Source of the DNA: Hyphomicrobiales bacterium
GTDB lineage: Bacteria > Pseudomonadota > Alphaproteobacteria > Rhizobiales > Beijerinckiaceae
DNA length: 64,000 nt
NCBI GenBank assembly: GCA_027483945.1
Contig: JAIXTM010000005.1
Span: forward strand, 186,001 to 250,000
Reading direction: 5' to 3'
Shown: one piece after another, positions 25,057 through 37,117 of the stretch
Layout: each line of letters starts with the position of its first letter
Position numbering within the stretch: position 1 is the stretch's first letter
Translations under genes and position numbers: made by a program
Notes under the pieces: model-generated
Databases searched by the model: none
Told to the model about the DNA's origin: nothing
Seen by the model: only the letters and a program-made list of their open reading frames with translations

Positions 25057-26445
25057 TTGACGGACGAACGCGGCAGCGGGCCGCAAGGCGGCCCTCACAA
25101 GCCGTTCGAGCCCGAGAAGATCATCGCGTCCCACACGCGCTCACTCGTCGTCGGTCCCTACCTGGTAGGCCGTCGGGGGCAGGGGACGCATGCGCCGGTC
25201 AACGACCGCGACATCGCGGCCCGGATCGAGGAGGCGGCGGGCCTCGCGCTCGCCATCGACCTTAACGTCGTGGACCGCATCGTGGCGCCGCTGCAGGCGC
25301 CGCGCCCCGCCACCTATCTCGGCAAGGGCAAGGTGGACGAGATCGCCGTGCGCATCGCCGCCGAGGAGATCGGCCTCGTCGTGATGGACTGCGCGCTGAC
25401 CCCGGTGCAGCAGCGCAACCTGGAACGGGCCTTCAAGGCCAAGGTCATCGACCGCACGGGCCTGATCCTGGAGATCTTCGGCCGGCGCGCCCGCACCAAG
25501 GAGGGCGCGCTGCAGGTCGAGCTCGCGCACCTGACCTACCAGAAGAGCCGGCTCGTCCGGTCCTGGACCCACCTTGAGCGCCAGCGCGGCGGCTTCGGCT
25601 TCCTCGGCGGCCCCGGCGAGACGCAGATCGAGGCCGACCGGCGCATCATCCAGGAGCGCATGACGCGCATCGAGCGCGACCTGGAGAACGTCGTGCGCAC
25701 GCGCTCGCTGCACCGGGCGAGCCGCCGCCGCGTGCCGTATCCGATCGTCTCGCTCGTCGGCTACACCAATGCGGGCAAGTCGACGCTGTTCAACCGGCTG
25801 ACGAGCGCCCGGGTCCTGGCCGAAGACATGCTGTTCGCCACGCTGGACCCGACCGCGCGCGCGATTTCGCTGCCCCATGGGGGCAAGGTGATCCTGTCCG
25901 ACACGGTGGGCTTCATCTCCGACCTGCCGACCATGCTGGTCGCGGCCTTCCGCGCCACGCTGGAGGACGTGCTGGAATCGGACGTCATCCTCCATGTCCG
26001 CGACGTCTCGCATGTGGACAGCGAGGCGCAGGCCAAGGACGTGGAGGCGATCCTGCGGGATCTCGGCATCGCGCCGGGCGACAAGCGCGTCATCGAGGTC
26101 TGGAACAAGGCCGACCTCCTCGACGCCGATACGCGCGCCATGATGCTGAATCGGACGGACCTGGCCGAGGCCGGCCGCGAGCCGGTCCTGATCTCGGCGC
26201 TGACCGGGGAGGGCGTCGACCGCCTGGTGAAGCGGGTGGAGGGCGCGCTGGCCGCCGGCCGCCACGTCTTCCAGGTCGAGCTCCAGGCGGAGGAGGGCAA
26301 GGCCCTCAACTGGCTCTACGAGGAGGCCGAGGTGCTGGAGCGCCGGGAGGGCGAGGACGGCCGCATCTCCCTCGCCATCCGCATCGCGCCGGAAAAGGAA
26401 CCCCGCTTCCTCCAGCGCCATCCCAGGGCGCGGCAGATTAGGTAG
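25057..26445 (+). CDS. hflX: ribosome-associated GTPase HflX
   Basis: 462 residues from a TTG start one base after the hfq stop, implying coupling. N-terminal HflX domain ([51 protein letters not shown]), a helical linker with [12 protein letters not shown], then the G domain with G1 GYTNAGKST (235-243), G3 DTVGFI and G4 NKAD. HflX splits stalled or heat-damaged ribosomes. The hfq-hflX pair is conserved across proteobacteria. Confidence 0.95.
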
Positions 26446-26465: not shown

Positions 26466-26546
26466 CGTCATTGCGAGGCGCGAAGCGACGAAGCAATCCA
26501 GCGGCCCGACCAGGTTCTGGATTGCGTCGCTTCGCTCGCAATGACG
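26466..26546. repeat. class C palindromic repeat
   Basis: CGTCATTGCGAGGCGCGAAG to GCTCGCAATGACG with GCAATCCAG/CTGGATTGC arms, between the convergent genes hflX and mazG. Confidence 0.8.
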
Positions 26547-26554
26547 GCACGGTT

Positions 26555-26592: not shown

Positions 26593-27426
<834 letters not shown>

Positions 27427-27517
27427 GGTCGGTCCGGTGCTGGATGGCGCCGCCATTCTAGCCATCGCGCGTCGATGCCGACAGCGAGGAGGCAACGTCA
27501 CGCACAGCCGGTTCCAC

Positions 27518-27545
27518 GATTCGCATAAGACATATTATGGAACTT
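27518..27545. other. dif: candidate dif site (XerC/XerD chromosome dimer resolution)
   Basis: 28 bases with the dif layout: left arm GATTCGCATAA, 6-base spacer GACATA, right arm TTATGGAACTT. Compared with Escherichia coli dif, 9 of 11 left-arm and 7 of 11 right-arm positions are identical, including the core CGCATAA and TTATG. It lies in the 188-base gap between mazG and the metallo-hydrolase gene, in otherwise GC-rich DNA. GGGNAGGG motifs and gene orientation change polarity around it, as expected at a terminus. No xer gene is in the window. Confidence 0.75.
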
Positions 27546-27614
27546 AAGTGGATGCGGTTTTGGCGTCGATCAAGATGAAATCACGAGACCGGTCAATTGG
27601 TTGGACGGCTCTGC

Positions 27615-28412
27615 TCAATCGAGCGCGATGCGCATCCCGTCATAGGCCGGCTCGATATGGTCCGGCAGTTCCTGGCGCAGGTTGTCGTAGTCCAGATCGG
27701 TATGGAGGTTGGTCAGCACCGCGCGGCGCGGCGAAACCTGCGCGATGAAGGCCAGCGCCTCGGCCAGGCTGAAATGCGTCGGATGCGGCGCGTAGCGCAG
27801 CGCGTCGACGATGAGCACGTCGAGGTCCTGCAGCATCGCCGCCGATTCCGGCGGCATGGCGCTGACGTCGCTCGCATAGGCTAGCCGGCCGAACCGGAAC
27901 CCCAAGGCGTGGATGTCGCCGTGGATCATGTCGAACGGCGTCGCCGCGATCGGCCCGCCGGGACCGTCGACGACGATGTCGCGGCCGAGCTCGATGCGGT
28001 GCTCGTCCAGGATCGGCGGATAGGCGCTGCCGGGCGGCGTCGCGAAGCAATAGCCGAAGCGCTCGTGCATGAGGCGCGCCGTGCCGGCTTCCATATGGAC
28101 CGGCACGCGCCGGCGCATATGGATCGCCAGCGGCCGCAGGTCGTCGATGCCGTGGGTGTGGTCGGCATGCTCGTGGGTCAGCAGCACGGCGTCGAGCCGG
28201 GTGACGCCGGCATCCAGCAATTGCTCGCGCAGGTCCGGCGAGCAATCGACGAGGACGCTCGTGGTGCCGGCCGGGCCGTCGCGCTCCACCAGCATGGAGC
28301 AGCGGCGGCGGCGGTTCCTCGGGTTGGCGGGATCGCAGGCGCCCCAGCCCGAACCCACCCGGGGCACGCCGCCGGAGGAGCCGCAGCCCAGGATGGTGGC
28401 GCGCAGCGTCAT
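27615..28412 (-). CDS. metallo-beta-lactamase fold hydrolase, PhnP-like
   Basis: 265 residues. Metal-binding motif LLTHEHADHTHGIDDLR with His80, His82, Asp84 and His85, further ligands in MIHGD and DVSAMPP, and an N-terminal ILGCGSSGGVPRVGSGWGAC loop like that of PhnP (cyclic phosphodiesterase) and related RNase Z-fold proteins. No phn genes are near. The order mazG, this gene, tatD, metG is common in Hyphomicrobiales, which suggests a housekeeping nucleotide or phosphodiester role, not proven. The start overlaps the tatD stop as ATGA. Confidence 0.85.
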   Translation of the reverse strand: MTLRATILGCGSSGGVPRVGSGWGACDPANPRNRRRRCSMLVERDGPAGTTSVLVDCSPDLREQLLDAGVTRLDAVLLTHEHADHTHGIDDLRPLAIHMRRRVPVHMEAGTARLMHERFGYCFATPPGSAYPPILDEHRIELGRDIVVDGPGGPIAATPFDMIHGDIHALGFRFGRLAYASDVSAMPPESAAMLQDLDVLIVDALRYAPHPTHFSLAEALAFIAQVSPRRAVLTNLHTDLDYDNLRQELPDHIEPAYDGMRIALD

Positions 28413-29215
28413 GCGGCGCCCGCCTCCGCGCGGCCGTCGCAGGCAGCCGCCTTGGCGAAGAGCCGGTAGAAATTCGCCGTCGTCGCCTCCGCGATTTCGG
28501 CGAGGCCGATGCCCTTCGTCTCGGCCAGGACGGCCGCGGTCAGTGCGGTATAGGCCGGCTCGCAGCGCTTGCCGCGATGGGGCGGCGGCGCGAGATAGGG
28601 CGCGTCGGTCTCCACCAGCAGCCGGTCGAGCGGCAGCGCCCGCGCGATCTCGCGGATGGCCTCCGACGTCTTGAAGGTCAGGATGCCCGAGAACGACACG
28701 TAGAGGCCGAGCTCGACGCCGAGACGCGCCAGCGCCTCGCCGGACGAGAAACAATGGAGGACCGCCTTGAAGGCACCCTTCCCCATCTCCTCGGTCAGGA
28801 TCGCGGCCATGTCCTCGTCCGCCGCGCGGGCATGGATGACGAGCGGGAGCCCGGTCTCGCGGGCGGCGGCGATATGGGTGCGGAACACCCTCGCCTGCAC
28901 GTCGCGCGGGCTCTTGTCGTAGAAATAGTCGAGACCCGCCTCGCCGATGCCGATGCAACGGGGATGGGCGCTGAGTTCCACCAGCCGCTCCGCCGGCACG
29001 TCCGGCTCCTGCCCCGCATTATGCGGATGGGTGCCCACCGTGAAGAACACGGATGGGAAGCGCTCGGCGAGCGCGCGATAGCGCTCGAAGCGGGACACGA
29101 AGGTCGAGATCGTGACCATGCGCCCGACGCCGGCGGCCTCGGCCCGCGCGATCACGGCGTCGAGTTCCTCGGCGAAATCCGGGAAGTCGAGATGGCAATG
29201 GCTGTCGACGATCAT
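28409..29215 (-). CDS. tatD: TatD-family metal-dependent DNase/hydrolase
   Basis: 268 residues, amidohydrolase-like TIM barrel. Metal ligands: N-terminal [11 protein letters not shown] (His6, His8), GEAGLDYFYD, VIHARAADED, and CFSSGEALARLG, then ETDAPYLAPPPHRGKRCEP near the C-terminus. Relatives have 3'-5' exonuclease or D-aminoacyl-tRNA deacylase activity. Stop and start overlap neighbours: TGATG with metG before it, ATGA with the metallo-hydrolase after it. Confidence 0.92.
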   Translation of the reverse strand: MIVDSHCHLDFPDFAEELDAVIARAEAAGVGRMVTISTFVSRFERYRALAERFPSVFFTVGTHPHNAGQEPDVPAERLVELSAHPRCIGIGEAGLDYFYDKSPRDVQARVFRTHIAAARETGLPLVIHARAADEDMAAILTEEMGKGAFKAVLHCFSSGEALARLGVELGLYVSFSGILTFKTSEAIREIARALPLDRLLVETDAPYLAPPPHRGKRCEPAYTALTAAVLAETKGIGLAEIAEATTANFYRLFAKAAACDGRAEAGAA

Positions 29216-35601: not shown

Positions 35602-35691
35602 GGACAGGTGGCCGAGTGGTTTAAGGCAGCGGTCTTGAAAACCGCCGTGGGGGCAACTCCACCGTGGGTTCGAATCCCACCCTGTCCGCCA
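35602..35691 (+). tRNA. tRNA-Ser (anticodon UGA)
   Basis: 90 bases including an encoded CCA end (35689-35691). Acceptor stem GGACAGG pairs with CCTGTCC; anticodon stem GCGGT/ACCGC with loop CTTGAAA gives anticodon TGA at 35636-35638. A long variable arm (CGTGGGGGCAACTCCACCG) and T-arm TGGGTTCGAATCCCA confirm the serine class. It reads UCN codons, mainly UCA. It stands alone, divergent from the DUF995-like gene. Confidence 0.97.
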
Positions 35692-35850: not shown

Positions 35851-36129
35851 GACGCCTCGTCCTTCGAGGCCGCTTCGCGGCGCCTCAGGATGAGGCTTCG
35901 GTTGGCGGCGCGCCCTCTACAAGGGTCCTCATGCTGAGGCGCTCGCCGGAACGGCGAGCCTCGAAGCACGCAGGATGCCCGTGAGCGGCTGATCCCTCCC
36001 CGCCAGGGGAGGGTGGCGCGAAGCGCCGGGTGGGGTCGCCGAGACAGCATGGATGGTAAGCGGAGCCCACCCGTCCGGCGTTCTCGCGCCGGCCACCCTC
36101 CCCTCGCAGGGAGGGATCAAGCGCGCGGC
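35851..36129. repeat. composite B+A repeat, copy 1 of a near-identical direct pair
   Basis: 279 bases made of a class B palindrome (35851-35975) and a class A palindrome (35991-36118). Copy 2 at 36697-36975 has the same length and orientation, differing at scattered positions. Long identical runs include the stretch GGCTGATCCCTCCCCGCCAG and the segment with CGAGACAGCATGGATGGTAA. Together with the adjacent class C copy it fills the 520-base gap between tRNA-Ser and the secreted-protein gene. Confidence 0.85.
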
Positions 36130-36211
36130 GACGCCAGGACGCGTGCCTTTGCCGGCGTTGCCGACCATGAGCATCCGTCCTAGCTTCGCGTCGCATCCCA
36201 CGGGGCGAGCG

Positions 36212-36658
36212 ATGACCAGGCATCTGCTGACAGCAGCGATCGGCGGCCTTCTCGTGTCGGCCACCCTTCCCGCCTTCGCCATGCCGCCGAAATCCTGCGC
36301 GGCGAAGTTCGTCGGGACGTGGTCCTATTCGGGCGGCACGACGGTGGTGAACGCGGACGGGACGGCCAATCCGCAATGCTTCCTGTGCGTGCCGGTCCAG
36401 ACATGGACCTGCAACGGCAACACCTACATCATCACCGGCCCGACGACCTACCAGGCGACGCTGACGCCGGACGGGCGGCAGATGGTGGGCTCGGCCGGGG
36501 TGGCGACGCGCGTCTCCGGCGGCGAGCGTCCGGCCGCGAGGCCCGCCGCCCAGCCCCGGCCCCGGCCTGCCCGCCCGCAGCCGAGCGCGCCCGTGGAGGC
36601 GGGCGCCCCGGCGCGGCCGGGCGACGCCGTTCCCATGCGCCAGAGCGGCGGCAACTGA
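36212..36658 (+). CDS. small secreted Cys-containing protein with Pro/Ala-rich tail
   Basis: 148 residues from ATG 36212; an ATG at 36167 is possible but would bury the signal peptide. Signal peptide about 1-23 (MTRHLLTAAIGGLLVSATLP). The core has Cys29, Cys56, Cys59 and Cys67 in a beta-rich region (FVGTWSYSGGTTVVNADGT, WTCNGNTYIITGPTTYQATL) that recalls secreted domains binding small ligands. The last 45 residues are low-complexity Pro/Ala/Arg. Family not recognised. The gene is flanked on both sides by the near-identical 279-base repeats. Confidence 0.68.
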   Translation: MTRHLLTAAIGGLLVSATLPAFAMPPKSCAAKFVGTWSYSGGTTVVNADGTANPQCFLCVPVQTWTCNGNTYIITGPTTYQATLTPDGRQMVGSAGVATRVSGGERPAARPAAQPRPRPARPQPSAPVEAGAPARPGDAVPMRQSGGN

Positions 36659-36696
36659 CGCCTGCGCTGCCGTTTCCCGTGATCCGGCCTGAGGAT

Positions 36697-36975
36697 GACG
36701 GCTCGCCCTTCGAGGCCGCCGCTGCGCGGCGTCACCTCAGGACGAGGCTTCGGTTGGCGGCGCGCCCTCCACAAAGGTCCTCATGCTGAGGCGCTCGCGG
36801 AGCGAGCCTCGAAGCACGCAGAGTGCCTGACCGGCTGATCCCTCCCCGCCAGGGGAGGGTGGCGCGAAGCGCCGGGTGGGGTCGCCGAGACAGCATGGAT
36901 GGTAACCGGAGCCCACCCGTCCGGCGCTCTCGCGCCGGCCACCCTCCCCTGGCGGGGAGGGATCAAAGCGCGCGG
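36697..36975. repeat. composite B+A repeat, copy 2 of a near-identical direct pair
   Basis: Class B part 36697-36822 and class A part 36837-36964, in the same order and orientation as copy 1 at 35851-36129. The pair encloses the gene at 36212-36658. Confidence 0.85.
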
Positions 36976-36992
36976 CTGTTCTCCACGCTGAT

Positions 36993-37117
36993 GTCATCCC
37001 CGGCCGGAGCGCCACAGGCGCGCAGGGGAAGGGGATCCAGAGGAGTGCCAAGCACCGCGCTGGGTGGTCGGCCTTCTCTGGATCCCCTTCCCGGTGCTGC
37101 GCACCGCCGGGGATGAC
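36993..37117. repeat. class D palindromic repeat
   Basis: GTCATCCCCGGCCGG to CCGCCGGGGATGAC, inner GGGGAAGGGGATCCAGAG opposite CTCTGGATCCCCTTCCC, the best-paired class D copy in the window. With copy 2 of the composite repeat it fills the 605-base gap between the two small secreted-protein genes; the remaining 146 bases (37118-37263) show nothing I can name. Confidence 0.8.

Follow-up and report, generated by a model that had tools for sequence, protein, structure and literature searches.

The arms of published Rhizobiales dif sites contain TCGCATAA and TTATGGAA (Carnoy and Roten 2009, PMC2731167), and both motifs were also found in the element analyzed here. Table 1 of that survey places the dif sites of Agrobacterium, Bradyrhizobium, and Mesorhizobium in intergenic DNA, at distances of approximately 7, 103, and 96 kb, respectively, from the extreme of the cumulative skew. 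The dif of Agrobacterium tumefaciens was identical to our element at 25 of 28 bases and shared 20 of the 22 arm bases, and those of Bradyrhizobium japonicum and Mesorhizobium loti were each identical at 24 of 28 bases. The differences from the Rhizobiales sites were limited to a few outer-arm and spacer bases, and to the terminus being visible here in KOPS polarity and not in local GC skew. In contrast, only 11 of 28 bases were shared with the dif of Caulobacter crescentus listed in the same table (PMC2731167 Table 1); thus, not every member of the class has this form of dif.

The locus has the 11-6-11 layout, the inner arm bases, an FtsK-gamma domain, and the GGGNAGGG polarity in common with the dif/XerCD/FtsK system of Escherichia coli. 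The end of the XerD arm reads GGAACTT here, whereas it reads GTTAAAT in E. coli dif, and the E. coli site presumably does not stand beside mazG. In Azorhizobium caulinodans, the same GGGNAGGG motif is reported to be biased towards dif (PMC2443382); its commonest form at our locus was GGGCAGGG.

Sequence and uniqueness of the dif element

The window, meaning the whole stretch of 64,000 nucleotides that was analyzed, covers bases 186001–250000 of contig C5 (284,893 bases) in a draft genome of 22 contigs, 3,125,813 bases, and 95.66% completeness. The candidate dif is a 28-mer on the forward strand at 27518–27545 (C5:213518), with the sequence GATTCGCATAA-GACATA-TTATGGAACTT. Two 11-bp Xer arms, the XerC-side arm GATTCGCATAA (27518–27528) and the XerD-side arm TTATGGAACTT (27535–27545), were assigned on the forward strand by comparison with published dif sites (PMC2731167 section 5, Table 1), and they enclose the 6-bp central spacer GACATA (27529–27534, forward strand), read directly from the sequence. 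The inner arm bases were conserved, and the spacer was more variable among relatives than the inner arms.

The first-pass annotation had described this element as an AT-rich match to the E. coli site at 16 of 22 arm positions, core bases included. Recounting against PMC2731167 Table 1 gave the same 16 of 22 (19 of 28 overall), and the inner arm bases were conserved as in E. coli dif. The base composition also agreed, with 9 of 28 G+C in the 28-mer versus 107 of 188 in the whole gap between mazG and the metallo-hydrolase gene. Windows of contig C5 had 62–72% G+C, and the 28-mer was intergenic and poorer in G+C.

The element had further been called the only one of its kind, and the draft genome bore this out. 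The 28-mer occurred once in the 22 contigs at up to 3 mismatches, the reversed control did not occur, and other places were far weaker. A relaxed pattern (up to 3 mismatches) matched 3 times on the forward and 3 times on the reverse strand, compared with 2 and 1 times for its control, and the candidate was the best of these matches in the draft with 1 mismatch. A dif profile was then used, built from 83 distinct sites at loci of other genomes that were collected with a pattern requiring the inner arms. The element scored 54.28 bits of a maximum of 58.23, and the runner-up among the 675,347 bases scanned (C5, C11, and part of C6) reached 4.15 bits.

When two mismatches were allowed, 56 of the 59 related genomes compared, drawn from the genus, family, and order, had a dif-like match. 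Many of these matches, having the core TCGCATAA-N6-TTATGGAA, were clear dif sites; some are fortuitous, because the reversed control matched in 19 of 60 genomes. Core and spacer were identical in the congener G001, whereas much of the flank had diverged. The identical 28-mer was found in at least six loci of other genomes, at least three of which belong to Bosea or Boseaceae. A scan of the genome collection with TTCGCATAA-N6-TTATGGAAC returned at least 119 stretches, and the 80 titled matches listed were mostly from Methylobacterium, Bosea, Microvirga, Devosia, and other Hyphomicrobiales.

The explanation that this AT-rich gap resembles dif by chance could draw on the shortness of the matching core and on the relaxed patterns that match elsewhere and in reversed controls. 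The margin of approximately 50 bits that separates the element from all other places in the scanned 675 kb, the core and spacer retained in G001 despite the divergence of its flank, and the KOPS convergence described below make this explanation extremely improbable.

Several genomes (G016, G020, G026, G003, and G014) carried more than one dif-like site, with differing spacers and on different contigs, which would be expected of genomes whose large replicons each carry a dif of their own. One such site lay within 10 kb of mazG in G016, G020, G014, and G026. Two inverted dif-like copies, 63 bp apart from start to start, were seen at G258:C37:25201-25288.

KOPS polarity around the element

The KOPS motif GGGNAGGG converged at the element on contig C5, with 52 forward and 8 reverse copies on the left of dif and 6 forward and 27 reverse copies on the right (Fisher p = 6e-11). 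This agrees with the first-pass suggestion that the window spans the replication terminus. GGGCAGGG alone was found 26 times forward and 2 times reverse on the left, and 0 times forward and 12 times reverse on the right. It ranked first for a strand switch at dif among the tested 8-mers, which were those that occurred 15 or more times and were polar on both sides, and it was the commonest and most polar of the four KOPS forms around the site.

Within the window, 12 of 15 GGGNAGGG copies to the left of dif pointed rightward and 15 of 19 to the right pointed leftward. By motif scan, the last rightward KOPS before dif was a GGGCAGGG at 26962–26969 on the forward strand, and the first leftward KOPS past dif was at 28776–28783 on the reverse strand. 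The best change point by likelihood was C5:212206-212556, approximately 1.0–1.3 kb to the left of dif, followed by the interval C5:212962-214776, which brackets dif. These two intervals are indistinguishable, because they are only 0.33 log units apart. The KOPS convergence at dif is located within approximately 1.3 kb and not to the base.

The same arrangement was observed in relatives. The congener G001 had 66 forward and 8 reverse KOPS to the left of its site and 6 forward and 63 reverse to the right, and the bracketing interval was second to the best change point by 0.30. Another family member, G009, had 92 forward and 22 reverse copies on the left and 19 forward and 56 reverse on the right, and its best change point bracketed the element. 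Two single-contig relatives were each sampled with twenty 20-kb samples around the site. KOPS counts there were 15 forward and 2 reverse before dif and 1 forward and 10 reverse after it in G010, and 35 forward and 14 reverse before and 12 forward and 36 reverse after in G021.

KOPS in our genome were counted over the whole of contigs C5 and C11 and over a portion of the other contigs. GGGCAGGG had 339 places genome-wide, of which the count covered the earliest, on contigs C1–C6. The nearest dif-like decoy, at C11:183237, was rejected, since it showed no KOPS switch (34/7 and 16/8, p = 0.22). On contig C6, a short run of forward motifs followed by reverse motifs formed a weak second convergence.

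The KOPS convergence is the strongest evidence for dif. Together with the single copy, the conservation, and the FtsK, XerC-like, and XerD-like genes described below, it supports the reading that the 28-mer is almost certainly the chromosomal dif at the terminus of FtsK translocation, with recombination proposed from the E. coli system. The element is very probably an ordinary dif of the known kind.

Mobile elements carry dif-like sites, and the element could instead be the Xer site of a plasmid or integrative element that uses host XerCD. About a quarter of the surveyed proteobacterial dif sites adjoin mobility genes (PMC2731167 section 8). At our locus, however, the immediate flanks look like ordinary cellular genes, relatives have dif at the same place, the KOPS of the contig converge at the element, and no second copy was found in the draft genome. 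A mobile-element site is accordingly very improbable.

GC skew at the terminus

GC skew on contig C5 was weakly positive on both sides of dif, +0.0098 on the left and +0.0201 on the right. The first-pass annotation had proposed skew as a check, and a skew placing the locus far from the terminus as a refutation. This check failed on C5; the skew did not change sign at dif and would have misled. Since skew does not mark the site here, the proposed rule for refutation is unusable on this genome, and GC skew was rejected as a terminus test.

Skew values in relatives varied. They were -0.022 on the left and -0.0153 on the right of the site in G001, -0.004 and +0.0172 in G009, and near zero in both arms in G021. 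Only G010 among these relatives showed the expected change, from +0.0138 before its site to -0.013 after it. The change in G009 was opposite in sense to those in G010 and in G235, a genome from outside the class that is described below. KOPS polarity is the better terminus test here, and in this unordered draft the terminus is marked by the site and not by GC skew.

Xer and FtsK genes

The genome contains one FtsK-gamma domain, on contig C18, and 10 matches to tyrosine recombinases, three of which were scanned with family models. The gene at C14:25952 scored higher with the XerD model (317 bits) than with the XerC model (262 bits) and passed the broader PRK00283 model (358 vs 279). The gene at C14:136571 scored higher with the XerC model (299 bits) than with the XerD model (220 bits). 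The names XerC and XerD are only probable, because both genes score below the NCBIfam equivalog cut-offs (XerC-like, 299 vs 335 bits; XerD-like, 317 vs 330 bits).

By analogy with E. coli, an odd number of crossovers would join sister chromosomes into a dimer. FtsK at the septum would load on the polar KOPS and pump the DNA of both arms towards dif, where it would activate the XerD bound to the right arm, XerC being on the left arm. The two copies of dif would then undergo recombination across the 6-bp spacer, yielding two monomers.

Adjoining tyrosine-recombinase genes in one direction were also observed at C11:227832-230237 (L052, L054, and L057). We take this set to resemble a recombinase-in-trio element.

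Genes flanking the element

The first-pass annotation had placed the element between mazG and a metallo-hydrolase gene. The mazG assignment stood, as the gene on the reverse strand at 26593–27426, encoding a nucleoside triphosphate pyrophosphohydrolase, exceeded the cut-offs of both NCBIfam PRK09562 and TIGR00444. The probable ATG of mazG ends at 27426, leaving 91 bp between it and the upstream dif; the longest mazG ORF begins at a GTG at 27501. The other neighbor, on the reverse strand at 27615–28412, looks like an MBL-fold metallo-hydrolase, and to that extent its assignment was upheld; its best NCBIfam match, NF038231, was below the equivalog cut-off (241 vs 360 bits). The dif lies 69 bp beyond the stop of this gene at 27615. 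The conserved outer neighbor hflX (25057–26445, forward strand; NCBIfam TIGR03156 over cut-off) served as the comparison gene for synteny.

Position of dif beside mazG in other genomes

The comparison with dif at mazG in related genomes, another of the proposed checks, was performed on an even draw of 144 genomes from the class, our own included. A dif-like match was lacking in 43 of the 144 and a MazG match in another count of 43 of 144, and the reversed dif control matched in 25. Seven of the 101 MazG-matching genomes were omitted for a short or weak match (G063, G064, G098, G109, G164, G173, and G188), leaving 94 with a usable MazG, 76 of which also had a dif-like site. Both were on one contig in 57 of the 76 and on different contigs in 19.

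The gap between dif and mazG was measured to the protein match and not to the start codon. Of the 57 genomes, 23 had a gap no longer than 250 bp, 41 no longer than 3 kb, 48 no longer than 10 kb, and 53 no longer than 50 kb. Each of the 53 sites within 50 kb was on the 5′ side of mazG, in one shared orientation. The remaining 4 of 57 were farther away, and some of these four look like chance matches. A random place would be expected within 10 kb in approximately 0.6% of genomes, a figure from which no probability can be read because the genomes are not independent.

A second set contained 60 genomes of the order, our own included, of which 56 had a usable MazG, 53 also had a dif-like site, and 45 had both on one contig. 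One genome with a weak MazG match (G043, E = 3e-4), reverse-strand readings of near-palindromic sites, and extra matches in G038, which has no MazG, were left out. The gap was at most 3 kb in 36 and 10 kb in 39 of the 45. The dif was on the 5′ side of mazG in all 45, in one orientation in 40 and in the other in 5. The five cases with flipped arms (G013, G045, G047, G057, and G024) were still 5′ of mazG, perhaps by a flip of the site with its place kept.

In the at least 119 listed stretches from the collection scan (up to 8 kb each), MazG was present in 47, the MBL gene in 66, and at least one of them in 78, and in every case their sides and strands matched those of the window. In G009 (L029), dif was 134 kb from mazG and yet approximately 1.1 kb from a match to the MBL gene, so the two flanks of dif are separable.

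The retention of dif beside mazG was compared with that of a gene pair. hflX was within 10 kb of mazG in 62 of the 88 class genomes with both, and dif was within 10 kb of mazG in 48 of the 76 with both. Thus, dif and mazG are kept together like a normal conserved gene pair and not better, and this comparison does not support a tie tighter than that of ordinary neighbors.

Outside the class, a phylum set was assembled with alphaproteobacteria excluded and one of the two G258 dif matches dropped. In one proteobacterial family (f152), 15 of the 16 genomes with both had dif 53–182 bp before the match to mazG, in the orientation opposite to the alphaproteobacterial one. By eye, dif stood approximately 13–31 bp from the likely mazG start codon in 9 of 10 f152 loci (L278–L287), and farther away in L281. 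The one f152 genome examined for polarity (G235) had 13 forward and 0 reverse KOPS on the left and 1 forward and 12 reverse on the right, and its GC skew switched too. In the other non-alphaproteobacterial genomes, dif and mazG were more than 100 kb apart in all 6 with both on one contig, and 26 genomes had them on different contigs.

These distances bear on whether the element serves mazG or the MBL gene as an AT-rich promoter or operator. Its place 91 bp before mazG and the short upstream distances in f152 would suit a regulatory element. Against this, mazG can be as near to the site as 28 bp or as far away as tens of kb in alphaproteobacteria, the conserved part is laid out 11-6-11 like a Xer site, and a search of 27350–27700 for promoters of the sigma-70-like type found none. 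We regard this role as highly improbable and retain the reading of the element as dif.

The proteobacterial dif sites of the 2009 survey sit in different genetic environments (PMC2731167 section 5), and the pairing with mazG is still notable for that reason. In open-licence full texts, we found no literature pairing dif with mazG and the terminus, or dif with mazG and XerD, and mazG was absent from the 15 papers listed out of 74 that a broader search matched. A word search found no mazG in the main texts of PMC2731167 and PMC3025954, whose supplements may hold the flanking genes. The new point is how long dif seems to have kept mazG as a neighbor.

The place beside mazG was most likely inherited from an early alphaproteobacterial ancestor. 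It would have been kept since rearrangements near the terminus would disturb KOPS polarity. Inverted DNA is reported to be lacking near the terminus, alphaproteobacteria included (PMC5993296), and passive inheritance fits such a scarcity of inversions. We regard gene order inherited at a terminus averse to rearrangement as the likeliest cause of the pairing.

A functional tie beyond inherited order, for example through late replication or an effect of XerCD binding on mazG, would also hold dif at mazG. The f152 pairing speaks for such a tie, as dif is just upstream of mazG in flipped orientation outside the class and the pairing could have arisen twice; it could also be a single old event. With retention no better than that of hflX and the wide separation in the other non-alphaproteobacterial genomes, we consider a functional tie unlikely. 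Inherited order remains our preferred explanation, and the f152 pairing may be either a second origin or an old relic. The broader proposition, that the alphaproteobacterial terminus has been fixed 5′ of mazG since early in the class and, with the flipped f152 pairing, reflects either a functional tie or a "frozen" point that changes in gene order rarely cross, appears to us evenly balanced.

For many alphaproteobacteria, looking upstream of mazG offers a quick rule for finding dif. The pair is also a case in which the idea of KOPS polarity freezing the order of genes at the terminus can be measured.

Other features of the window

An imperfect inverted repeat with arms GCGAGGCGCGAAGC... and ...GCTTCGCTCGCAATGACGG was seen by eye between hflX and mazG, at 26470–26550, and was not reported by the automated repeat search. 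We take it to resemble a kind of dispersed intergenic repeat in alphaproteobacteria.

To the right of dif, a patch at 35994–37085 contained KOPS-like motifs of mixed orientation (4 forward and 6 reverse), against the general polarity of that side. It holds three KOPS-like pairs 12 bp apart and is perhaps a repetitive coding stretch. A tRNA-Ser gene (anticodon TGA) at 35602–35691 was the sole tRNA identified by ARAGORN in the window.
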